Part shown: positions 976 through 11,284 of the stretch, piece after piece
Position numbering within the stretch: the first letter of the stretch is position 1
Layout of the letters: each line of letters opens with the position of its first letter
Notes under the pieces: generated by a model
Database searches by the model: none
The model's input: the letters and a program-made list of their open reading frames with translations, nothing else
What the model was told of the DNA's origin: nothing
From: an uncultured Clostridium sp.
Lineage (GTDB): Bacteria; Bacillota; Clostridia; Lachnospirales; Anaerotignaceae
NCBI GenBank assembly: GCA_947246775.1
Contig: CAMXTM010000037.1
Coordinates: forward strand, 1-11,349
DNA length: 11,349 nucleotides
Direction: 5' to 3'
Program-made: the position numbers and the translations under genes

Positions 976-1736
976 ATGATATTTTATTTTTCAGGAACAG
1001 GAAATTCTTTGTATACTGCTGAAAGACTTTCCACTTCTTTACAAGAACCGATATGCAATATCGCACAAGCAATACAAGAAAAAAAATTTAGTTACATACT
1101 CTCAGAAGAAGAACGTTTAGGTTTTGTATTCCCTGTATACGCTTGGGGGATTCCAAAACCAGTTGCTACTTTTTTAAAAAATATAGAAATTTCCTCTATC
1201 GCCCCCTATTATACATTTGCTGTTATCACTTGTGGCGACAGTATAGGATTGACAATGGACACACTTAAAAAATTATTAAAACAAAAAAATATCTATTTAA
1301 ACAGTGGTTTTTCTCTCGCTATGCCCGACAACTATGTTGATTTGATGTCATCAGCAAGCAACAACAGTTAGAAAAACTCGACCAAGCAGACAACATGATA
1401 TACAAAATTGCAAAAATGATTGCGCTAGAAAAAGATGACTTTTTCCGTGTAGAAACAGGAAAATTTGCTTTTTTAAAAAGCACACTTTTCAATTATTTAT
1501 TTTCTGAATTTTATACTAACACAAAACGCTTTTATATCACTGGCGACTGCACAGGCTGCGGAAAATGTGAGTCTATTTGTCCTGCCAATATGATACACAT
1601 GGATTCGGAAAAACCTCGCTGGGACGAGGGCAACTGTTATATGTGTCTTGCTTGCCTAAATCATTGCCCCAAAAAAGCAATACAATACACCAAAAATACA
1701 GAAAAACATGGTCGTTATGTCAATCCACGTCTATAA
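976..1736 (+). pseudogene. EFR1-family flavodoxin/ferredoxin protein, split by a frameshift
   Basis: Two overlapping frames together encode one EFR1-type protein of about 250 residues. The first part (976-1371) starts with the flavodoxin phosphate-binding loop FSGTGNS and continues through FPVYAWGIPKP to MPDNYV. It then runs into nonsense and a TAG. The second frame is open from 1341 and reads FDVISKQQQLEKLDQADNMI, which is how the family continues after MPDNY. It ends in a two-cluster ferredoxin domain with CTGCGKCESICP and CYMCLACLNHCP, eight cysteines for two 4Fe-4S clusters. A -1 shift (loss of one base) near 1336-1345 explains the break. No slippery heptamer is visible, so mutation or sequencing error is likelier than programmed frameshifting. 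Such proteins are thought to move electrons between flavin and iron-sulfur centres. The ribosome site GAAGGG is at 961-966. If translated as two pieces, the second could begin at ATG 1395. Confidence 0.75.
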
Positions 1737-1740
1737 TATA

Positions 1741-1778
1741 AAACTCCCCTAGTTCATTACTAGAGGAGTTTATTTTTT
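1741..1778. terminator. Bidirectional rho-independent terminator
   Basis: A 13-bp stem with one mismatch (1741-1753 with 1759-1771, C1748/A1764 unpaired) closes a 5-nt loop and is followed by ATTTTTT. It sits in the 40-nt gap between the convergent EFR1-type gene and the aldolase gene. The minus-strand side also has a T-rich tail, so it probably serves both. Confidence 0.85.
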
Positions 1779-2433
1779 ACAATCCTAATGTATCTTTTCC
1801 TGTGTATTTTTTCCATGCAGAAACAAAATCACCTACTGCCTTTGCAGTATTTGTATTATATATCAATTTTTCCATTAAATCTACACTAATTGTTACTGCA
1901 TCAATGCCATTTACCATAAGCTCTTTTACTTGCATCATATTTTTAAAACTTGCTGCAAGCACCTTACAATCTATATTTTGTTCTCTAAACGCTTTTTGTA
2001 TCTCCAATGCCGCTTTGACACCATCTATTTCTAAATCGCAAATTCGATTAACATATGGTGCTACATATGCTGCCCCACAATTTGCCGCCATAAGCGCCTG
2101 CTCTACAGAATAAATACCTGTAGCAAGCGTTCTTATATTTTCATCTTTTAAAAGTTTAATTGCTTTTAAGCCATTTGCTGATGCTGGTATCTTGACAATA
2201 ATATTTTTTCCTAATGACATCAGTTTTTTTGTTTCTTCTATAATACCTTCTACTTCATCTGATATGACTTGCACAAAAAGTGTTTTATCTTTTGGTACAA
2301 CTTCCACAAGTTTTAAAATATTCGCTTTGTCATTTACAATAATCGTTGGATTGCTTGTCACTCCTGTTATATTATACGCCTCAACATATTCTTTGATTTT
2401 TTCATAATTTGCACTATCTAAATAAAATTCCAT
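1777..2433 (-). CDS. Transaldolase / fructose-6-phosphate aldolase-like protein
   Basis: This 218-residue protein has the short length of the FSA/TalC group of transaldolases (about 215-220) rather than classical transaldolase (about 310). Family motifs are complete: LDSAN at the N-terminus, GVTSNPTII, the Schiff-base lysine K81 in IIVKIPAS, VAPYVNRI with Y127, and AASFKN. These enzymes are class I aldolases of the cytoplasm that either cleave fructose 6-phosphate or transfer dihydroxyacetone units. Sequence alone does not separate the two activities. Ribosome site GAGGAGG (2449-2443) is embedded in the last codons of the SorC gene, 5 nt separate the two genes, and they form an operon. The regulator probably controls the aldolase in response to a sugar phosphate. 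Confidence 0.88.
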   Translation of the reverse strand: MEFYLDSANYEKIKEYVEAYNITGVTSNPTIIVNDKANILKLVEVVPKDKTLFVQVISDEVEGIIEETKKLMSLGKNIIVKIPASANGLKAIKLLKDENIRTLATGIYSVEQALMAANCGAAYVAPYVNRICDLEIDGVKAALEIQKAFREQNIDCKVLAASFKNMMQVKELMVNGIDAVTISVDLMEKLIYNTNTAKAVGDFVSAWKKYTGKDTLGL

Positions 2434-2438
2434 ACTGC

Positions 2439-3416
2439 TTATTCCTCCTCACAACATATCGCTTTTGCTGTTATACTATCCGTAATTAACACATTTATAA
2501 TTCCTGTAGAAACAGCTACTTTAATTGCTTTTACTTTTTCTTCTCCAAACGCAATACCTACTCTAGTAGGTACTTTTTTTACTTCTTCTAGGGTAACTCC
2601 TATTACTCTATCATTAAATTCACTTTCTAATGTATTACCATATTTATCATATACTCTGCCTACAATTTCTCCCTCTCCGCCTTGTTTTGACAAATTCAAT
2701 ATCATATCTCTTTGCTCACAATCTAATATTGCTATAGAAGAATTTTCAGCCAAAGCGCCTATGCCAAATATTCCTATGTCGCAATCTTTTGCTTTCTGTA
2801 ACACATTTTTTATTTGTGGTTCTTTTAAAAGCATTTTTTTTGTTTCTATATTTTTTACATACATAGGTGAAGCAAAATGATAACTTATGCCATTTACCAT
2901 TTCTGCTAATTTTGATGAAAGTAAACTCGCATAACTTAATGCTAAATCATTACTATGCGCTGTCTCAGGCAGCATTGTTCCTAAAAATGGAACAACTTCT
3001 ATATTTTTTGCTCTTACTTGATTCCCTACCTTATACTCATCAAATACATCAACTATTTTTTTAATCATATGCCCCCAAGCAATTCCTACTGTTACATTAC
3101 TTTTTAGCACTCTTGAAATGTAATAGGCAGCCTCTTTTGCTACAGCAGCATCTCTTTGCTCTATATCATATACCTTTACAGCAATGACTTCTTTTAATTG
3201 ATATTTTTTTTCTAAATTCTTTTCCAGCTCAATAAAATTTTCTGTCGGAAAATCAATAACAATTTTTACATATCCCTCCTTTTTCGCCTTTGTTAATGCC
3301 CTAGAAACTGTCGTACGTGATACATTTAGCTTTTTAGCAATTTCATCTTGTAACATTTCTTGTTGATAATACATATCAACTACTTTCATTAAAAATCTTT
3401 CATCGCTTTTTATAAT
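2439..3416 (-). CDS. SorC/DeoR-family sugar-binding transcriptional regulator
   Basis: An N-terminal helix-turn-helix (QDEIAKKLNVSRTTVSRAL) is followed by a SorC-type effector domain, including VGIAWGHMIKKIVD and the C-terminal VLITDSITAKAI. These cytoplasmic regulators bind sugar phosphates and usually control the operon they sit in; here the partner is the aldolase directly downstream. The first ATG (3389) gives 316 residues but has no good ribosome site. The frame is open upstream for 11 more codons, encoding IIKSDERFLMKVVDMYY..., and the DERFL stretch looks like the usual N-terminal helix of the family. A ribosome site AGAGGTGA (3430-3423) lies 7 nt before an in-frame ATT at 3416. I therefore set the start there, giving 325 residues with a near-cognate start. 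If that is wrong, use 3389, whose ATG overlaps the TAA of a four-codon ORF (MKDF, from 3403). Confidence 0.85.
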   Translation of the reverse strand: MIKSDERFLMKVVDMYYQQEMLQDEIAKKLNVSRTTVSRALTKAKKEGYVKIVIDFPTENFIELEKNLEKKYQLKEVIAVKVYDIEQRDAAVAKEAAYYISRVLKSNVTVGIAWGHMIKKIVDVFDEYKVGNQVRAKNIEVVPFLGTMLPETAHSNDLALSYASLLSSKLAEMVNGISYHFASPMYVKNIETKKMLLKEPQIKNVLQKAKDCDIGIFGIGALAENSSIAILDCEQRDMILNLSKQGGEGEIVGRVYDKYGNTLESEFNDRVIGVTLEEVKKVPTRVGIAFGEEKVKAIKVAVSTGIINVLITDSITAKAICCEEE

Positions 3417-3469
3417 ATCGCTTCACCTCTTTTGCACATATAACACATAATGTAATTACGTTCATCTTT

Positions 3470-3497
3470 ATTATACTACTCTATTTTTTATTGTCAA
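3470..3497 (-). promoter_or_regulatory. Consensus promoter of the SorC-aldolase operon
   Basis: On the minus strand TTGACA (3497-3492) and TATAAT (3475-3470) are 16 nt apart, both perfect to consensus. Transcription would start near 3463, giving a leader of about 45 nt. The leader includes a small palindrome GTAATTAC (3459-3452), a candidate operator for SorC autoregulation. Confidence 0.8.
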
Positions 3498-3556
3498 TCT
3501 ATTTTTTATTTTTATGATAATTAAAACAAATAAAATACGACACCTTTTTATTATTG

Positions 3557-3617
3557 TATTGACAATATATGACTTTTATAGTATGATTACGCTATAGTCA
3601 TACTAATTAAGTAGGAG
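3557..3617 (+). promoter_or_regulatory. Promoter P1 (first copy of a duplicated promoter cassette)
   Basis: TTGACA (3559-3564), a 17-nt spacer and TATGAT (3582-3587) form a strong sigma-A promoter. The -10 is covered by an inverted repeat TAGTATGA (3579-3586) / TCATACTA (3598-3605), a candidate operator. The whole segment matches 4041-4101 at about 53 of 61 positions. It drives the small membrane protein at 3628 with a leader of about 35 nt. Confidence 0.8.
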
Positions 3618-3627
3618 AGTGATAACA

Positions 3628-3978
3628 ATGCAAAAAAAATATCTTATTACAACAGTGGCTACATTTGGTGTTTGCATATTGTGTTTTATGGTATATCTTT
3701 TTCATACACCCAAAGTTACTATGCAAGACAGTGACCTAAATACAAGCGAATGGACAAACATTTACCAAACAGCAAACTCCAATGATTTCAGCATTATAAA
3801 TGATGCAAACAATGATGATATGATTGTTTGTAGAATACTCGACAAACAACAAAATATCATTCAAGAGCCTTTTGCTGTAGAACTTGGCGAAAAAAAAGAG
3901 CTGCTTTCTTTACAAAGCGACTGCATTATACAGGCACAAGCAATACAAGGAAATTACCGAATTAGAATTTTAGAATAA
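3628..3978 (+). CDS. Small membrane-anchored protein of unknown function
   Basis: I do not recognise this 116-residue protein. It begins with a basic MQKKY followed by a single hydrophobic segment (about residues 6-25, ITTVATFGVCILCFMVYLF). It therefore looks like a signal-anchored protein with its body outside the membrane; no lipobox is evident. The remainder (about residues 27-116) is polar, rich in N, D and Q, and ends in alternating hydrophobic residues (YRIRILE), suggesting a small beta-rich domain. ATG 3628 was chosen over GTG 3619 because AGGAG (3613-3617) is 10 nt upstream of the ATG. The gene is monocistronic: its own promoter lies upstream and a terminator directly downstream. Its promoter is a duplicate of the one driving the next two genes, so shared regulation is likely. 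Confidence 0.75.
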   Translation: MQKKYLITTVATFGVCILCFMVYLFHTPKVTMQDSDLNTSEWTNIYQTANSNDFSIINDANNDDMIVCRILDKQQNIIQEPFAVELGEKKELLSLQSDCIIQAQAIQGNYRIRILE

Positions 3979-3995
3979 ATTACATAAATAATCTG

Positions 3996-4032
3996 ATACA
4001 GCATGATATTTTTTATTATGCTGTATTTTTTT
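3996..4032 (+). terminator. Rho-independent terminator after the small membrane protein
   Basis: ATACAGCAT (3996-4004) pairs with ATGCTGTAT (4018-4026), with three more inner pairs possible (G-T, A-T, T-A). A run of six T follows. It ends the 3628 transcript just before promoter P2. Confidence 0.85.
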
Positions 4033-4040
4033 ATATCTAT

Positions 4041-4101
4041 TATTGACAATATATGACTTTTATAGTATAACTATACTATAGTAATACTAATTAAATAGGT
4101 A
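4041..4101 (+). promoter_or_regulatory. Promoter P2 (second copy of the duplicated cassette)
   Basis: TTGACA (4043-4048), a 17-nt spacer and TATAAC (4066-4071) form the promoter for the 4186-5491 operon. A perfect 9-2-9 inverted repeat TATAGTATA (4061-4069) / TATACTATA (4072-4080) covers the -10. A wider TAGTAT (4063-4068) / ATACTA (4084-4089) dyad is kept from P1. The leader is about 108 nt. Confidence 0.78.
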
Positions 4102-4120
4102 CTACTATAAACTATATTAT

Positions 4121-4179
4121 GAAAGGGGCGTACAAACGACATAATTATCAAAAGCATAAAATTTTAAATGGAAAGGGGC
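4121..4179 (+). repeat. Repeated ribosome-site sequence GAAAGGGGC in the P2 leader
   Basis: GAAAGGGGC occurs at 4121-4129 and again at 4171-4179, where it serves the 4186 gene with a 7-nt spacing. The same string precedes the 5012 gene (4996-5004). The copy at 4121 has no ATG at a usable distance. It may be the relic of a lost small gene or a decoy site in the leader. Confidence 0.5.
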
Positions 4180-4185
4180 TATACT

Positions 4186-4989
4186 ATGTATATCAATACA
4201 ACATCATTTGCAAGCACTTTTTTATCAAAAAAGCAAAATACAACTATCACAAACAGTTTGCAAAAAAATTTAGAAAAAATTGCAAACCATGTTAATGAAA
4301 AACAGTGCGAAAATCAAAAAATTGAGCAAAAAAACTTTGAAAATGTCAAAAAAGAAACCGTATTTGTAGCAGAACAGCAGCAACAGATGCAATCTATTGA
4401 GGACATTGTAAAAGTAGATGACAAAACCACATTAAAAGAATTTGTTGCAATGTTATGCAGCGCTAGCCGTACTGCTGACAATTATTGTCAAGAAATTGAA
4501 CAGTTTCAAGACGCTTTACAGCAATTTGACAAAGAAATACAGTCTTATCAAGACATGATAAACGACCCATCAAAATTAAAAGATGGTTTAACGATTGCAG
4601 ATGCTATGGACTACTTAGAGCAAATCAAACAAAAAAAACAAGACTATGTTAAACAAAAAAGTGATGAATTTCAAAACAGAAGTGAATTTCATACAGCGCT
4701 TCTCAAAGGTACACTTGGTTGCAGCAATATTGTTTCTCAAAAAGAACTAGACAGTTTGCTATTTCACAATACAGATGATGTCTCTCAAGAATTAGAGCGC
4801 ATCTCCAAAGGAATCCATACTATCAAAAACAGCATCGCAGACACACTAAAAAATATCATGGATAAACTGGAGCAAAAAGGAGAATCAACACAATTTATTT
4901 TATATAACAAAAATGGTCAAAAAGATGATATAACACTTCAGCTATGGCAATTAGAAAAAAAACAAAGTGAATTAAATTATTTTATTTGA
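4186..4989 (+). CDS. Unknown glutamine-rich coiled-coil protein
   Basis: I do not recognise this 267-residue protein. It has no signal peptide or membrane segment and is probably cytoplasmic, unless exported by a signal-less route. It is very rich in Q, K, E and N, and much of it looks helical: residues about 25-70 (LEKIANHVNEKQ...) and about 95-165 (QEIEQFQDALQQFDKEIQSYQDMI... and AMDYLEQIKQKKQDYVKQK) have heptad-like patterns. A third helical part (ELERISKGIHTIKNSIADTLKNIM) is near residues 198-225. The C-terminus is ELNYFI. ATG 4186 follows GAAAGGGG by 7 nt; the ATG at 4168 would leave the ribosome site inside the gene. It is cotranscribed with the 5012 gene, 22 nt downstream. It could be a structural, scaffold or secretion-substrate protein; nothing decides between these. 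Confidence 0.8.
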   Translation: MYINTTSFASTFLSKKQNTTITNSLQKNLEKIANHVNEKQCENQKIEQKNFENVKKETVFVAEQQQQMQSIEDIVKVDDKTTLKEFVAMLCSASRTADNYCQEIEQFQDALQQFDKEIQSYQDMINDPSKLKDGLTIADAMDYLEQIKQKKQDYVKQKSDEFQNRSEFHTALLKGTLGCSNIVSQKELDSLLFHNTDDVSQELERISKGIHTIKNSIADTLKNIMDKLEQKGESTQFILYNKNGQKDDITLQLWQLEKKQSELNYFI

Positions 4990-5011
4990 CAACAGGAAAG
5001 GGGCATGATTT

Positions 5012-5491
5012 ATGAATACAGGTATGATACAAAATTTAATTGGTGCAGGCAATAGCTTAAAACTTGCTTCTGTCTCTATGAATGTTTATACACAGGCAAA
5101 GCTTAACGGTGACGAACAAACTATGAACAGAGCAATGGGCTATACCATAAATTCTACAAAACAGGCACAAAAATATAGCGAAAATTTAGAGCAGTATGCA
5201 AAGGCTGACCAACAAGAAAATGCAGAAAAAGTTGAGGCAGAAAAGGCAGAAGCTCTTGCAGAGAAAAAAGCAGAAAATAAAATAGAAAATGAAATCAAAA
5301 AGGAACAACTATATTACAATACTGAAAATACAGACAATGTACAATTTAGCGAACAGGCAAAACAATACATTGCGCAGCAAGTAAAACTTGCTACCAAAAA
5401 TAATCTTGTTACAGAAACTCCAAAAACTTACAGTGCTACAGGAGAAATAGAAAATAATATAGATGTTCCAGAATTAGATATTATCGTATAA
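5012..5491 (+). CDS. Unknown small helical protein, partner of the preceding gene
   Basis: This 159-residue protein matches no family I can name. It begins with a conserved-looking segment of about 50 residues (IGAGNSLKLASVSMNVYTQAK, then MNRAMGY). A strongly charged helical stretch follows, rich in A, E and K (about residues 55-95, AEKVEAEKAEALAEKKAENK). The C-terminal part contains VQFSEQAKQYIAQQ and a final acidic DVPELDIIV. There is no signal peptide or membrane segment. The ribosome site GGAAAGGGG (4995-5003) is 8 nt before the ATG. It shares operon and ribosome-site sequence with the 4186 gene and is followed by a terminator. The two proteins may interact through their helices, which is inference. 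Both are Cys-poor and Gln/Lys-rich. Confidence 0.8.
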   Translation: MNTGMIQNLIGAGNSLKLASVSMNVYTQAKLNGDEQTMNRAMGYTINSTKQAQKYSENLEQYAKADQQENAEKVEAEKAEALAEKKAENKIENEIKKEQLYYNTENTDNVQFSEQAKQYIAQQVKLATKNNLVTETPKTYSATGEIENNIDVPELDIIV

Positions 5492-5499
5492 ATTTTTAT

Positions 5500-5535
5500 A
5501 GGCAGAGGTATTTTATCTCTGCTTGTTTTTATTTT
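5500..5535 (+). terminator. Rho-independent terminator of the 4186-5491 operon
   Basis: GCAGAGGTA (5502-5510) pairs with TATCTCTGC (5514-5522) around a TTT loop; the stem extends two pairs outward. The tail TTGTTTTTATTTT follows. It separates this operon from the first stalk-protein operon. Confidence 0.88.
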
Positions 5536-5540
5536 GCAAT

Positions 5541-5585
5541 CTTAATAAAAACGTAAACAATCTTAATAAAAATGTAATAGATAAA
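5541..5585 (+). promoter_or_regulatory. Tandem direct-repeat element, copy 1 (candidate activator site)
   Basis: CTTAATAAAAACGTAA (5541-5556) and CTTAATAAAAATGTAA (5562-5577) are direct repeats with a 21-nt period, two helical turns. Each holds TTAATA and GTAA half-motifs 11 nt apart. The whole 45-nt block matches 7949-7993 in 43 positions. OmpR/PhoB-type response regulators typically bind such helically phased direct repeats. The regulator is not identified here. Confidence 0.65.
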
Positions 5586-5597
5586 CGATTACTTTAA

Positions 5598-5616
5598 TAT
5601 TACAATTATAGTAATA
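5598..5616 (+). promoter_or_regulatory. -10 region of the first stalk operon, no -35 box
   Basis: TATAGT (5607-5612) starts exactly 45 nt after the start of the second direct repeat (5562). The same distance separates repeat and TATAAT (8015-8020) in the other operon. No -35 match exists 16-18 nt upstream, as in activator-dependent promoters. An inverted repeat TATTAC (5598-5603) / GTAATA (5611-5616) spans the -10. Confidence 0.55.
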
Positions 5617-5645
5617 CAAATACTACAAAAATATCCTAAAAATAC

Positions 5646-6575
5646 ATGAACCAAAAGGAAGTGTTTATCATAAAAAAACTACTACTTACTACAGCAACTA
5701 TTTTTACAGTAATTTATTTTATTTTTATCTTTGTCAGTGCAGCACAACAAAATACAAATTTCTTTTATACAGAAAAACAAATACGACAGTATGAACAACA
5801 ACAATATCAAAAAATTCAAAATGATATAGAAAATATTCATGCTGAAATTGCACAATATCAAAAAACGCACCCACAATTACGCATTTTTGTAAATGGGGAA
5901 CAAAAAGAGATTGTCCAATATGCTTACAATGATAAACAATATTTTTTACCTGTGCGTTGGCTTGCAGAGCAACTTCATTACAACATTACTTGGAACAATG
6001 ACACCAAAACAGCACAACTACAAAATCAAAACAACACCATTTCTTTTACAGAAAATGACAATCATATGCTTATTAACGGAAATCGTATTGAAATGGAATA
6101 TGCTTCAATGCTTTCTGATGGTTCTTTGCTTGTGCCAATTCCATACGAAAGTAGTTTTCTAAAAACTGCAAAAAACAACGATACCAACGCACTTTACATT
6201 ATAGAGCCTCAGCGCATTTTATATGAAAATAAAACTTTAGGGATTGGGGTACTTATGCCTGAGGGCTATCAAAATAATTGCTTTAAAGTAACAGAAAACA
6301 ACAGTGATACTAATACAATCATACAGTTTTTTGATTCTGAGGGAGAAATGTTAATTTTTTCATTGTGGTATGGCAATTTAGACTACTGGGAAAAAGAAGT
6401 AAAACCAACTTTTTCTATTCCTTATACAGAAGTTTGCCAAAATAATAACCATATCCTATTGTGTGTCAATACTTCTGATGTGCAGTATGACAGCGACACC
6501 AAAAAAGCAATCTACGAAACCTTACTCCAGTTAAAACAAAAAATATATGATAGTGTTTATTTTTTTACAGAATAA
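5646..6575 (+). CDS. Secreted copper-amine-oxidase N-terminal (stalk) domain protein
   Basis: Residues 10-33 form a signal peptide or signal anchor (KKLLLTTATIFTVIYF...). Residues 41-75 are a Q-rich helix with coiled-coil character. Residues 79-170 resemble the copper amine oxidase N-terminal-like domain (Cu_amine_oxidN1): IFVNGEQKEI, FLPVRWLAEQL, ITWNNDTKTAQL, then a second half MLINGNRIEM...LLVPIPY. The rest (about 190-309) is an extracellular domain beginning LGIGVLMPEGY, similar in tone to the end of the 9202 protein. In Clostridia such 'stalk' domains occur in many secreted or wall-associated proteins and do not imply amine oxidase activity. ATG 5646 has no ribosome site. By contrast AAAAGGAAG sits before an in-frame ATA at 5670 (IKKLLL), exactly where the sister genes have ATGAAAAA. 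The true start may be that ATA (301 residues). First gene of a bicistronic operon. Confidence 0.82.
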   Translation: MNQKEVFIIKKLLLTTATIFTVIYFIFIFVSAAQQNTNFFYTEKQIRQYEQQQYQKIQNDIENIHAEIAQYQKTHPQLRIFVNGEQKEIVQYAYNDKQYFLPVRWLAEQLHYNITWNNDTKTAQLQNQNNTISFTENDNHMLINGNRIEMEYASMLSDGSLLVPIPYESSFLKTAKNNDTNALYIIEPQRILYENKTLGIGVLMPEGYQNNCFKVTENNSDTNTIIQFFDSEGEMLIFSLWYGNLDYWEKEVKPTFSIPYTEVCQNNNHILLCVNTSDVQYDSDTKKAIYETLLQLKQKIYDSVYFFTE

Positions 6576-6604
6576 AATAGTATCAAACTTAGGAGGGAAG
6601 TATC

Positions 6605-7945
6605 ATGAAAAAAATATTTGCAATAATACTATCTTGTAGCATGATTTTTGGAAACATGGCTACAACATTTGCTATGACAAAAGAAGACGACCTAAACTAT
6701 CAAAAAGTAATACAACTCTTAAATGAAATGCCTGATTTCTATAGTGGATATTATATGGTCGCTGATGACTTACATATTATACCGCTCCGAAATGGAAAAG
6801 ACATAAAAGAAATTTTAGATTTTACAACAATTAAATACAAAAAAATTGTCATTGACATTCCCCAAAAGTATAGCGTAAGCCGATTAAATCAAGCATTTGA
6901 AATATTGCGCAACAAAAGAGACGATTTAGGCATTACAAAATATGGTATTGATATTAGAAATAACGGTTTAGAAGTCGCCGCAAAAGAGTGGACAGAGGAA
7001 AAAAAACAGCTCATACAGAAAGTAACTAATATTGAAAATATTACTTATGTAACTGAAATAGGTGACAACAGTTCCAGCCAATTTGAGCCAAGAACAGAAA
7101 ATACAGAAAGAACAGCCACAGTTCAAAAAGAGAACATACTACAGCCCAGAAAACAAAGAGAAGCAAAATTAACACTCAATAACAAAAATTACATACAAAA
7201 TGGAGAAAATAAAGTATTTTTAGAAGCGCCCTATTTGTCCCAAACAGGCAAAACAATGATAGCAGCAAAAGACTTTTTTACTATGATAGGTATGCCCGAA
7301 CAAACCATATTTGATAAAACACAACAAGAGGAGCAATTTTTCCAAGTAAGAGATGGTCACTTTGGTAATTTTCAAATTTTTATTGAAAAAAATGGTGTCA
7401 TTGATATGGGTATCGAAACATGGGAAGATGACAAAAGAAACTATAAAAGATTTTTGCAAAGTATAGATGTAGAATGCAAAAATGATGTGCTATTTCTTCC
7501 AATGTCTGATATGTTGCAATTTTTAGAACAAAACTTTTACGAATTTTATAACGAAATCACTTGGGACAACAACGAAAAATCTATTTTACTCAAAACACCT
7601 GAATTGTTTGACTATGACATTGCATTAGACCAACAAGTTTACGCAGCAGGCACAGATACGATTACAGCACAAATATATAACTATGGACTAGGCGAAATTT
7701 GTTTTGGAGAAGATTTTTGTATTGAAAAGTGGGACGGCAGCAAATGGATACAATATTACAGACCAACTTGCATTGATGATGTTGGTTATAGTTCTTTGCC
7801 ATTTTATAAAGTTTCAAAACAAAGAAAATCAAAAAAACCATTTACCGCAGGACAGTATCGATTAAAAGAAGTTTCTATGTCTTATGATTTTGCTGATTTT
7901 CAGCATATTAAGATTGCTCCCATTGCTTATTTTACAGTAGAATAA
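6605..7945 (+). CDS. Secreted multidomain protein with stalk-like and Ig-like domains
   Basis: This 446-residue protein starts with a clear signal peptide (MKKIFAIILSCSMIFGNMATTFA, cut near residue 23). Residues about 30-150 form an alpha/beta module (KIVIDIPQKYSVSRLNQAFEIL, KYGIDIRNNGLEV, EEKKQLIQKV). It is loosely like small modules that precede secreted domains, but I cannot name it. A polar linker covers about 152-187. Residues about 188-330 look like a diverged stalk-type region (KLTLNNKNYIQNG, KTMIAAKDFFTMIG, VLFLPMSDMLQFL, ITWDNNEKSILL). The C-terminus (about 337-446) resembles a bacterial Ig-like domain of the Big_14 type: DQQVYAAGTDTITAQIYNYG, FCIEKWDGSKWI, AGQYRLKEV. No sortase motif or transmembrane tail is visible, so it is probably secreted. 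Ribosome site AGGAGGG (6591-6597) is in a 29-nt gap after the preceding gene, so both share one transcript. Confidence 0.82.
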   Translation: MKKIFAIILSCSMIFGNMATTFAMTKEDDLNYQKVIQLLNEMPDFYSGYYMVADDLHIIPLRNGKDIKEILDFTTIKYKKIVIDIPQKYSVSRLNQAFEILRNKRDDLGITKYGIDIRNNGLEVAAKEWTEEKKQLIQKVTNIENITYVTEIGDNSSSQFEPRTENTERTATVQKENILQPRKQREAKLTLNNKNYIQNGENKVFLEAPYLSQTGKTMIAAKDFFTMIGMPEQTIFDKTQQEEQFFQVRDGHFGNFQIFIEKNGVIDMGIETWEDDKRNYKRFLQSIDVECKNDVLFLPMSDMLQFLEQNFYEFYNEITWDNNEKSILLKTPELFDYDIALDQQVYAAGTDTITAQIYNYGLGEICFGEDFCIEKWDGSKWIQYYRPTCIDDVGYSSLPFYKVSKQRKSKKPFTAGQYRLKEVSMSYDFADFQHIKIAPIAYFTVE

Positions 7946-7948
7946 TGT

Positions 7949-7993
7949 CTTAATAAAAACGTAAATAATCTTAATAAAAATGTAATGGATAAA
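7949..7993 (+). promoter_or_regulatory. Tandem direct-repeat element, copy 2 (candidate activator site)
   Basis: CTTAATAAAAACGTAA (7949-7964) and CTTAATAAAAATGTAA (7970-7985) repeat the element at 5541 with two differences in 45 bases. It begins 3 nt after the stop of the 6605 gene, with no terminator in between. Some read-through into the next operon is therefore possible. Confidence 0.65.
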
Positions 7994-8014
7994 TTACTTC
8001 TTTAGTGGTATAAG

Positions 8015-8020
8015 TATAAT
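8015..8020 (+). promoter_or_regulatory. -10 box of the second stalk operon, no -35 box
   Basis: TATAAT begins 45 nt after the start of the second direct repeat (7970), matching the spacing at the first operon. The expected -35 position (near 7992) has no consensus. The inferred leader to the start at 8218 is about 190 nt, unusually long for this window. Confidence 0.55.
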
Positions 8021-8056
8021 ATAGTTATATGATTGTAATAGACAGTAAAAAAATCC

Positions 8057-8145
8057 TTTTTTGGTATTGCTTTAAAAATCCATTTTATGGCTTATATTGC
8101 CAATTTTTTATATAAGCATATAAAAATATACACAATACCACAAAA
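8057..8145 (+). other. Long imperfect inverted repeat in the 8218 leader
   Basis: Three nested arms can pair. TTGGTATTG with flanking T run (8057-8069) pairs with CAATACC and the following A run (8133-8145). TTTTAT (8083-8088) pairs with ATAAAA (8120-8125). GCTTATAT (8090-8097) pairs with ATATAAGC (8110-8117), leaving a 12-nt loop. It could be a structured 5' leader or the remnant of a small inverted-repeat element. No known riboswitch class is recognised. Confidence 0.5.
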
Positions 8146-8217
8146 ACGGCGTAAAATACCCTTTTAAAGCGCTAAAAAGAGCATTAAAAATAACTTGATA
8201 GAAAGGAAGTATATATT

Positions 8218-9165
8218 ATGAAAAAATTGATTGCATTTGCCTTTACTTTTATTATAACAACTACTACAATAATACCTTGTTTTGCTATGGACAGCAACGA
8301 CATTGCTTTCGCTCATTATTATGATGTAACAGCACAGCAAGATGGCAGCATTACTATAACAGATAGGAATGGTGTTTGTATGGAAGGGCTTGCCTATGAA
8401 AAAGATAACTGTATTATGCTTCCTCTAAAAACAGTTATCAACACAGAAAACAAGCACTATACCGCAAATAGACAGGCAGTATATACAAAAAATCAAGATA
8501 CTGCAACCATTACACTAGACGGCAAAGAAATTACATTTTTTGAGGGCAAAAGAGAAGTTACCATTGATGGCAAAAAAAGAGGACTCTATACTGTGCCTGA
8601 TATAAAACAAAATGATGTATTTGTTGCAACAGAAGATTTATATGTCTTATTAAGTATGCATACTAGAACTAATTCTAACAAATTTATTTGGGAACCTGGC
8701 AGCAAACAAATTGGCTGGTATTTTAGAGGTGATGATGGCGCTCATATCAACAATACAGAGTATGAACAAAAAAAATATAGACTATCTGTAGAATATGATG
8801 GAACGCTTTTTGAGGGGAAATTTGAAAAAAATATGCCTGCTTATCAAAAAAATAATCATTTTATGATTGGTTTAAAAGAGATTTCTTACTTTGTGGAGCC
8901 TAAAATATTACTAGAAACCAATTGGGACCAACAAAACAATCAATTGTTTATTAAAACATGGGACGGCAATGCAAAAGATATTGTATTGCAAAAAGACAGC
9001 AATATTATGACAGTAAATGGTGTTGCAGTAAAAATGGAAGAAAAAGCAGAAATCAAAAATGACTGCTGGTACATTCCTATTACAGCATTATTTGATATAT
9101 TAGACATTCCTCAGCAAAATATTGATTGGATAGAAAAAGGAAAAAATGTATCTATCGTATATTAA
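8218..9165 (+). CDS. Secreted stalk-domain protein
   Basis: This 315-residue protein has a signal peptide MKKLIAFAFTFIITTTTIIPCFA, probably cut after residue 23. Two stalk-like (Cu_amine_oxidN1-like) stretches follow. One is at about 55-145 (CMEGLAYEKDNCIMLPLKTVI, ATITLDGKEITFFEG, DVFVATEDLYVLL). The other is at about 215-315 (HFMIGLKEISYFV, TNWDQQNNQLFI, IMTVNGVAV, WYIPITALFDIL). In each, the pattern of 'VNG ... functional LP/IP ... hydrophobic helix ... W-D' recurs. No catalytic residues or cell-wall anchor are visible. It is probably an extracellular structural or binding protein. ATG 8218 follows GAAAGGAAGT (8201-8210). It is the first gene of an operon with the 9202 gene, 36 nt downstream, and paralogous in layout to 5646-7945. 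Confidence 0.82.
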   Translation: MKKLIAFAFTFIITTTTIIPCFAMDSNDIAFAHYYDVTAQQDGSITITDRNGVCMEGLAYEKDNCIMLPLKTVINTENKHYTANRQAVYTKNQDTATITLDGKEITFFEGKREVTIDGKKRGLYTVPDIKQNDVFVATEDLYVLLSMHTRTNSNKFIWEPGSKQIGWYFRGDDGAHINNTEYEQKKYRLSVEYDGTLFEGKFEKNMPAYQKNNHFMIGLKEISYFVEPKILLETNWDQQNNQLFIKTWDGNAKDIVLQKDSNIMTVNGVAVKMEEKAEIKNDCWYIPITALFDILDIPQQNIDWIEKGKNVSIVY

Positions 9166-9201: not shown

Positions 9202-10458
9202 ATGAAAAAGAAAAATGTAATACTGACTTTATTGTGTTGTCTGTTATATTGTGTCACCGCATTTGCGGCTAACAATACAACAATCGAAAAAGCAATTGGT
9301 GTCCAAAATGCTTCAGACATTACGATGGTTTGCATTGAAAATGAACAATATAGCACTATTTTTCATGTGGTTGACAAAAGTGAAATCCAACAGCTATATC
9401 ATAAGCTCATCAATACAGCAGTAGAAAAAACAACAGACACTGCTGATATTTGGGGAAAAGGGTTTAATGGTTGGTATAGTGTAAGGTTCTATCAAAAAGA
9501 AGATAAACTAATGACAGAATTTTATGTTTCTGGAGATATGATATTTACGCAAGATGATGCCTTTTTCTCTGGAAGTAATCAGTACGGAAAAGAAAACGAA
9601 TTTTGCAAATACATTGAGGAAATCGAAAAAATAAAACAAAAATATTTTGCTGATTTAAAACAAAATGAAATTTACAATAATGAAGTCATTGTAGAGTACG
9701 AAAAATTAAATTACAAATGGGGCAAACCTTATTTTAATCAAAAGAATCAGCTAATGGTGCCTTTTCAAGAACTAAATACTGCTTTAAACACACAGGCAAG
9801 TTATGATGTCAAAACACAGTTGGTTTCTATTCGTAGGGGAGAACCTATACCACTCTATGGAGAAGTCACAGACGAAATTGTATATGTACCCGTAAAAGCA
9901 CTTGCAGAAATGGGAGAATATGATATTTATTGGGACGAGGAACTAAAAACAGCATTACTCACCAAAAATAACAGAATAGAATTATGGAATCAAAGAAATC
10001 TTTGCCCTCCACAAACGCACATTGAAACACAAGATTTTATTGTAGATTTGCCTGATAGTATAACCTATGAAAAAGATGAACTAGAAGATAATAGTATGCA
10101 TCTTTATAGAGTAAATACACCAAACTCATCTTATATAGGTCGTATTAAAAAATATACTGATGATGACAAAGACTTTGATTTTGCGCAGCAACAAAAGAAT
10201 GGAAAAATAGGAACAATAACAAGCCATTTTTTAAATATGATGGGAATGACCTATATAACAGAATTTAACATTGATATGATGGCAGGTTCTTCAAAATATG
10301 CTGATATGGAAATTTGGCTTGGTAGGGAAGATTTTGACGAAATGTATTATTTCTTTGTAAATGGAAAAGATGTCTATGTTTTTTATTTTAGACAAAACAA
10401 AATTGATAGAGAAGAACAACAAAAAATTCTTTCTACTTTCCAATACAACAAAAATTAA
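9202..10458 (+). CDS. Secreted stalk-domain protein with distinct N- and C-terminal domains
   Basis: This 418-residue protein has a signal peptide ending CVTAFA at about residue 22. An N-terminal domain of about 30-150 follows (DITMVCIENEQYSTIFHVVDKSEI, GWYSVRFYQ), which I do not recognise. Residues about 164-255 form a stalk-like domain (KWGKPYFNQKNQLMVPFQEL, VYVPVKALAEMGEYDIYWDEELKTALL). The C-terminal domain (about 275-418) begins TQDFIVDLPDSITYEKDEL and ends EEQQKILSTFQ. That layout is typical of small extracellular alpha/beta domains, and it is similar in position to the end of the 5646 protein. ATG 9202 was chosen over TTG 9181 because AGAGGGGGAG (9185-9194) lies 7 nt upstream and would fall inside the coding region otherwise. 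It is the second gene of the operon. No clear terminator follows for about 200 nt. Confidence 0.82.
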   Translation: MKKKNVILTLLCCLLYCVTAFAANNTTIEKAIGVQNASDITMVCIENEQYSTIFHVVDKSEIQQLYHKLINTAVEKTTDTADIWGKGFNGWYSVRFYQKEDKLMTEFYVSGDMIFTQDDAFFSGSNQYGKENEFCKYIEEIEKIKQKYFADLKQNEIYNNEVIVEYEKLNYKWGKPYFNQKNQLMVPFQELNTALNTQASYDVKTQLVSIRRGEPIPLYGEVTDEIVYVPVKALAEMGEYDIYWDEELKTALLTKNNRIELWNQRNLCPPQTHIETQDFIVDLPDSITYEKDELEDNSMHLYRVNTPNSSYIGRIKKYTDDDKDFDFAQQQKNGKIGTITSHFLNMMGMTYITEFNIDMMAGSSKYADMEIWLGREDFDEMYYFFVNGKDVYVFYFRQNKIDREEQQKILSTFQYNKN

Positions 10459-10893: not shown

Positions 10894-10930
10894 CTAATAA
10901 TATTTATACTTAGAAAAGGAGATGACACAC

Positions 10931-11284
10931 ATGAAAATATTTGATTCAGAATTAAAAGTATTAAAAGTGTTATGGGAAGAAGAAGAGATTAGAGCAAGTC
11001 AGGTTTGTAAGATATTGGAGGAAAAAATACATTGGAACAGAAACACAACCTATACTGTAATTAAAAAATGTATAGAAAAAGGATATGTAGAAAGAATAGA
11101 GCCTCACTTTGTTTGTAAAGTATTGATTTCCAGAAAAGATGTGCAAAAACAAAGTATCTCTGATATGATAGGCAGACTATTTGAAGGTTCAAGCAGCGAA
11201 TTTCTCAAAACATTTTTAGAACAAGGCAACTATTCAGAACAAGAAGTAGAAGAATTTAAAAAAATAGTAAATGAATCAAAATAA
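10931..11284 (+). CDS. BlaI/MecI/CopY-family transcriptional repressor
   Basis: This 117-residue protein has the family length and layout. A winged helix lies at about residues 3-70 (FDSELKVLKVLWEEEEIRASQVCKIL, WNRNTTYTVIKKCIEKGYVERI), followed by a short C-terminal dimerisation helix region (ISDMIGRLFEGSSSEFLKTFLEQGNYSEQEVEEFKKIV). Family members bind dyad operators as dimers and are inactivated by cleavage in the C-terminal part by an M56 (BlaR1/MecR1-type) membrane protease, often encoded next door; copper-responsive CopY relatives exist. No CopY-like CxC metal motif is visible, so the protease-coupled type is likelier. Any partner would be beyond the right edge. ATG 10931 is chosen because AAAGGAG (10915-10921) is 9 nt upstream; the ATG at 10922 abuts it. 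The promoter carries two dyads, so autoregulation is probable. Confidence 0.88.
   Translation: MKIFDSELKVLKVLWEEEEIRASQVCKILEEKIHWNRNTTYTVIKKCIEKGYVERIEPHFVCKVLISRKDVQKQSISDMIGRLFEGSSSEFLKTFLEQGNYSEQEVEEFKKIVNESK

Follow-up and report, generated by a model that had tools for sequence, protein, structure and literature searches.

For regulators of the OmpR family, binding sites in which a 5-bp spacer separates two 6-bp half-sites are described for KdpE and WalR/VicR (PMC3264566, PMC4168254), and the CiaR site is given as NTTAAG-N5-WTTAAG at a distance of 10 nt before the −10 (PMC3091779). LytTR-domain regulators occupy sites directly 5' of the −35, at 4–11 bp in S. mutans and mostly at 10 bp elsewhere (PMC2714321, PMC6193735), with repeat letters that vary widely while the spacing is kept (PMC6193735), and the AgrA site has its centre near −60 (PMC4227749). 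RemA, at the Bacillus eps and tapA promoters, protects at least six 7-bp stretches at steps of about 10 bp (PMC8481266). These sources, as well as PMC9210968 and PMC6222199, which belong to the further literature of this analysis, are cited on the basis of extracts. Here, we compare with these systems a 45-nt block that occurs twice in a stretch of 11,349 nt from an uncultured Clostridium sp. (contig CAMXTM010000037.1; this whole stretch is referred to as the window), where it lies ahead of two genes for predicted secreted proteins, termed D and F. The element is genuine, strongly conserved and of promoter type, with two copies, and it is striking in sequence while ordinary in kind.

The 45-nt block and its two copies

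The two copies of the block, both on the plus strand, share 43 of 45 bases, with 36 of 37 identical across the tandem which they contain, namely two 16-nt direct repeats CTTAATAAAAAYGTAA with a 21-nt period, present in either copy. The positions of the elements and of the −10 boxes proposed for the two promoters are as follows.

5541–5585, plus strand: element copy 1, with 16-mers at 5541–5556 and 5562–5577, read from the sequence
5607–5612, plus strand: proposed −10 TATAGT of promoter 1, without a good −35 partner
7949–7993, plus strand: element copy 2, with 16-mers at 7949–7964 and 7970–7985, read from the sequence
8015–8020, plus strand: proposed −10 TATAAT of promoter 2

The surroundings have diverged, in line with the original prediction, with identities of 9 of 41 bases just 5' of the block and 6 of 27 past the −10, where random window pairs have a mean of 8.3 of 28. 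The stretch between block and −10 (5586–5613) shows a lower identity than the block itself, 18 of 28 bases, and this gradation from 43/45 to 18/28 speaks for a homologous promoter under constraint. Since the proteins encoded by D and F share only about 22% identity across 120 aa, the near-identity of the block indicates that it is either under constraint or was copied; it would exemplify a regulatory site that hardly changes while its target genes are similar at only about 20%. The self-match at lag 21 amounts to 17 of 24 in both copies (P ~1e-4 versus order-1 Markov sequence), and repeat detection returned the pair of copies as a 74-nt repeat of 84% identity. In each copy the first 16-mer carries C and the second T, and this common order suggests, as far as can be judged from the letters, that the whole tandem and not single boxes was shared by descent or copying.

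From a genome-wide scan of the tandem at up to three mismatches, just these two sites were obtained, with none for the reversed control, in an assembly that is 78% complete and could therefore lack additional copies. Both sites precede PF07833 genes. The element is not a dispersed repeat: no such family was seen, and the many copies outside promoters that a dispersed repeat should display did not appear. Single boxes with up to two mismatches gave 47 matches, including the four exact ones, versus 59 for the reversed control. Beyond the own genome, the tandem at the same threshold was found in 0 of 4 congeners, and the relaxed exact tandem had no match in a collection of genome contigs (84,980 species, contigs of at least 3,000 bases, records of the own genome possibly excluded) and none in viral contigs. 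When the promoter block was searched by BLAST against 58 genomes of the family, only the own genome matched over most of the block among the matches listed, the best of those listed from elsewhere reaching E 4.4e-5 over 41 query bases. Four of seven loci from other genomes were read and set aside, two (L180, L182) lying inside coding DNA and two (L178, L181) showing nothing of the kind ahead of a comparable gene. A plasmid search returned six records, in none of which 80% of the promoter block matched in one place.

The distance of 45 nt from second repeat to −10, as originally predicted, holds in both copies when counted from the start of the repeat but not from its end, from which it is 29 nt. 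Hexamers of such −10-like quality are common, being found at 98 of some 7,100 positions of the plus strand, with further ones near both copies, so that the offset common to the two copies counts as useful evidence but not as strong. The proposed lack of a −35 box stands, in the sense of no good partner, for the shared −10 boxes: the best listed partner of TATAGT upstream of D matches at 3 of 6 positions, and the −35 maximum among the best-scoring pairs is 4/6 in D, with TACAAT, and 3/6 in F, where the best pair is ATTACT-16-TATAAT. It does not extend to every −10 upstream of D, where an ordinary promoter candidate at 9/12 uses another one. It is well supported that two promoters lacking a good −35, both located before secreted-protein genes, have a cis-element in common.

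Candidate regulators and alternative explanations

We tentatively prefer, at somewhat less than an even chance, a model in which an activator of the D and F promoters, most likely an OmpR/PhoB-type regulator that co-expresses D, E, F and G, docks upstream at the 45-bp block. Two homologous sigma-A promoters without a good −35 would accordingly depend on the block as their upstream activator site. If transcription begins some 7 nt past the −10 (near 5619 and 8027), the tandem would reside at about −78 to −42, its two boxes two helical turns apart on the same DNA face. A regulator, most likely of OmpR/PhoB type, would bind these boxes head to tail as two 6+5+6 units and recruit RNA polymerase, leading to co-expression of the secreted-protein cluster, with copy 2 acting either inside the cluster or at the head of F and G. 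We infer protein binding, activation, the regulator class and the transcription starts from the arrangement of the DNA; activator binding is the most likely mechanism, and unit length only places an OmpR-type activator ahead of one of LytTR type.

Tandem boxes about 21 bp apart on one DNA face, a trait of OmpR/PhoB-type sites, are borne out by the lag-21 self-match, and the class is encoded, with five matches to PF00486 in the own genome, among them the regulator at L104, which scores 341 bits against a YycF/WalR cut-off of 340. For two of the five genes, each of the five genus members has a match of equal score, and for the other three this is plausible, judged by scores only; their presence has no discriminating value. 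Concerning the predicted OmpR/PhoB geometry, the 16–17-nt unit fits, while the half-motif period is not significant and a LytTR site fits period and position about as well.

Several results weigh against an OmpR/PhoB-type site. The internal half-motif of about 10.5 nt, part of the original prediction, could not be upheld: lag 11 alone gives P 0.014 (D) and 0.031 (F) versus Markov sequence, rising to P 0.15 once the letters of the 21-nt unit are shuffled, and the lag-10 self-match has P 0.14 and 0.22 in the two copies. The chief sequence argument for OmpR/PhoB half-sites is thereby removed, although the 16–17-nt unit length still fits. The nominal spacers are conserved as strongly as the half-sites. 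The 9/12 pair upstream of D, TAGATA-17-TACAAT, begins directly after the tandem and relies on a different −10. The element is absent upstream of the orthologues of F in the two congeners G004 (61% in BLAST) and G003 (57%), as read at L062 and L063. None of the stretches read around the five OmpR-type genes (L103–L107) carries the element in promoter position, an arrangement which the original prediction had in view and which is common in the class but not required. L103 has one weak match to the element, in coding DNA. At L105, position 2894 on the minus strand, weights from D and F only give a high-scoring four-half-site stretch, antisense inside a histidine-kinase gene adjoining a PhoB-like regulator; the similar locus L149 has the same antisense match at 327, and both are taken as chance.

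The consensus fits are mixed and do not decide the class; five consensuses were tried against 4,000 random 45-mers, and the P values are not corrected for this number. For single boxes, the WalR/VicR consensus TGTWAH-N5-TGTWAH shows 2–3 mismatches per 12 (P 0.19 at up to two), the PhoP-type consensus one mismatch in D (P 0.036) and two in F, and CiaR NTTAAG-N5-WTTAAG, matched on the minus strand, one and two mismatches per 11 (P 0.0045), so that these fits are weak or misplaced. With two boxes at 21 bp, a test that favours any tandem repeat irrespective of its letters, the fits surpass random 45-mers and speak for the class: WalR/VicR reaches five mismatches (P 0.005), the PhoP-type consensus P 0.00025 in D, and CiaR a fit equalled by 0 of 4,000 random sequences.

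A doubtful though serious possibility is a site of LytTR type, that is two 9-bp direct repeats 12 bp apart, within the 11–13 bp of the class, just 5' of a degenerate −35 and bound by a LytTR-domain regulator. The period of 21 equals 9 + 12, TACRTTTTT, read on the minus strand, would leave 7 bp between its end and the vacant −35 position (hand count), and three LytTR domain matches are present in the own genome, none of them from a gene in the window. The pair shows mismatches at 3 of 16 specified letters (P 0.0025), yet on the opposite strand and with a consensus variant of our own choice, whose TACGTTAAT core occurs in PMC2714321, and the conserved unit is 16 nt long, not 9. Quite unlikely is an effect of DNA shape, by which two A5 tracts 21 bp apart would bend the DNA or act as an UP element in the absence of a dedicated regulator. 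AAAAA is found in phase in each 16-mer, and both the location 5' of a promoter without a good −35 and the AT-rich window (GC 0.30) would suit this explanation; non-A positions (CTTAAT, YGTAA) are, however, conserved equally. In the window, A5 pairs at 21 nt are not rare (four versus 0–5 at other lags), yet the remainder of the element is present at just these two loci.

Identity could also reflect age instead of selection, if a promoter piece was recently copied by recombination or gene conversion. Similarity that sets in sharply at the first base of the repeat, spacers as conserved as the repeats and the tandem missing from all four congeners would be in agreement with such an event, which we still judge improbable, as identity is graded toward the −10 and similarity stops there, as for a functional promoter unit. 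Very improbable, finally, is the binding of another homodimeric or repressor-type protein, for instance of the BlaI family or ArgR: BlaI-family genes do lie near E/F-family genes in three genomes (window 10922–11284, L062 10082–10465, L072 6888–7238), but each box is palindromic at only 6 of 17 positions, the upstream region of the window's own BlaI gene has a different palindrome (by eye), and the ArgR consensus gives P 0.05 with a single box and P 0.16 with two boxes. As separate observations, a near-palindrome TATTATACATATAATA overlaps a −10-like site before the window's BlaI-family gene (by eye), and in L062 the BlaI-family gene is followed by a gene for an M56-like membrane protein (by eye).

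Genes, transcription units and possible further members

The preferred activator model concerns four genes, D to G, which follow a terminator-like stem-loop.

5498–5526, plus strand: terminator-like stem-loop after the upstream gene (5012–5491), from the terminator scan
5646–6575, plus strand: gene D, hydrophobic N-terminus (by eye), PF07833 stalk domain over cut-off
6605–7945, plus strand: gene E, N-terminus resembling a signal peptide (by eye), Big_14 above and PF07833 below cut-off
8218–9165, plus strand: gene F, PF07833 over cut-off, signal-peptide-like N-terminus (by eye)
9202–10458, plus strand: gene G, PF07833 over cut-off, signal-peptide-like N-terminus (by eye); the open reading frame list starts at an upstream TTG, 9181

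The partition into two separate operons, as originally predicted, is weakened. Copy 2 begins 4 nt past the stop of gene E and no terminator-like site is listed between them, so that a single D-to-G unit containing an internal promoter has the same likelihood as two operons; in each region covered by the terminator scan, 3400–8300 among them, two sites were found versus 1.7 expected in shuffles, a yield near shuffled level. The listed ATG of gene D at 5646 lies upstream of a Shine-Dalgarno-like AAGGAAG and lacks an evident Shine-Dalgarno of its own, while 8 nt after AAGGAAG stands ATA where gene F has ATG (by eye; 5655–5680). The true start of gene D may be near 5671, at a non-canonical codon. 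If promoter 2 is used, gene F has a leader of about 190 nt (8027–8217) with a long imperfect stem, and its folding exceeds that of shuffles only slightly (z −1.85; as good in 8 of 200); an Rfam search gave three matches, all far below gathering scores, with no family over its gathering score in this leader. The search of genome contigs for loci related to protein E gave no confirmed relative, and PHROGs returned no family for four window proteins. PF07833 has 27 matching stretches in the own genome. Should the element bind one regulator, it would offer a way to learn when some of the bacterium's many PF07833 proteins are made.

The DNA upstream of three genes looks like a degenerate four-half-site array, namely that of an F-like gene in the own genome (L065, at G000:C54) and those of its counterparts in G002 (L068) and G004 (L069); here the −10 lies 43 nt after the third half-site and has no good −35. 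Their MAFFT alignment to D and F is ambiguous, being one base off half-site register, and 11 nt off on 41-nt stretches. A profile (R1) trained on D, F and these three loci, and scored on 150 candidates per genome of 1,370–3,816, gave E<1e-7 only for its five training sites, which is circular, with the next match at E 0.0046. Using weights from D and F only, the number of positions scoring as high among 1.2 million, from loci that overlap partly and include one with the window's own copy 2, is 47 (L069), 114 (L068) and 90 (L065F; 404 in the other register), or 347, 1,045 and 637 (4,162), respectively, without the −10 term, which ranks the loci high though not first. The link of the three loci to the element is suggestive only, and we treat it as a lead and do not count them as members. 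A further reading, which seems unlikely to us, is that of a fast-evolving secreted stalk-protein cluster driven by a regulon with an undescribed tandem site peculiar to it, the G000:C54 promoter and its two congener counterparts being degenerate arrays and the regulator hence older than the site sequence. At all three loci the F-like stalk-protein gene lies beside an operon for a BMP-type lipoprotein and ABC transporter (by eye), and at L065 a G-like gene is located between the two.

From 12 of the 14 R1 matches after the training sites, which were read, by eye only L129 precedes a relevant gene, and it was dropped as a plain TTTACA-16/17-TATNAT promoter (by eye). Its gene has five genus orthologues, with the promoter conserved in three (L166–L168) and not in two (L169, L170); in the former, the promoter of this G-like secreted-protein gene is conserved around TACACTTTTTAMAACAATATTTACAAA, followed by a −10 at 16–17 bp.

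Elsewhere in the window, a second repeated promoter pair (3557–3615 and 4041–4099, 59 nt, 90% identity) precedes genes at 3628 and 4186. It holds 28 identical bases in a row, the longest exact repeat of the window, with TTGACA in each copy and an 8-bp inverted repeat TAGTATGA/TCATACTA in the copy at 3557–3615 (by eye). A flavodoxin/ferredoxin-like gene (by eye) at 976–1736 is split into two frames, 976–1371 and 1395–1736.

Comparison with described sites

RemA sites, as far as the cited extract describes them, resemble the element in being AT-rich, weakly conserved direct repeats in helix phase 5' of an activated promoter, and they differ in their number, the element comprising two repeats at 21. 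CiaR sites are spaced otherwise: the motif resembling theirs lies here on the opposite strand, with 29 nt instead of 10 nt between its end and the −10. LytTR sites (PlnC, AgrA, LytTR Regulatory Systems) share with the element the 21-nt period and the position just 5' of a would-be −35, and the element centre near −60 from the assumed start agrees with the AgrA extract; the unit is, however, 16 nt instead of 9, and the resemblance to TACGTTAAT exists on the minus strand only. Compared to OmpR/PhoB-family sites, the 11-nt half-site period is not significant here, whereas AT-rich direct repeats, boxes of 16–17 nt two turns apart, a weak core promoter and regulators encoded in the genome are held in common, and the 6+5+6 half-site arrangement of KdpE and WalR/VicR equals the length of the 16–17-nt unit of the element.

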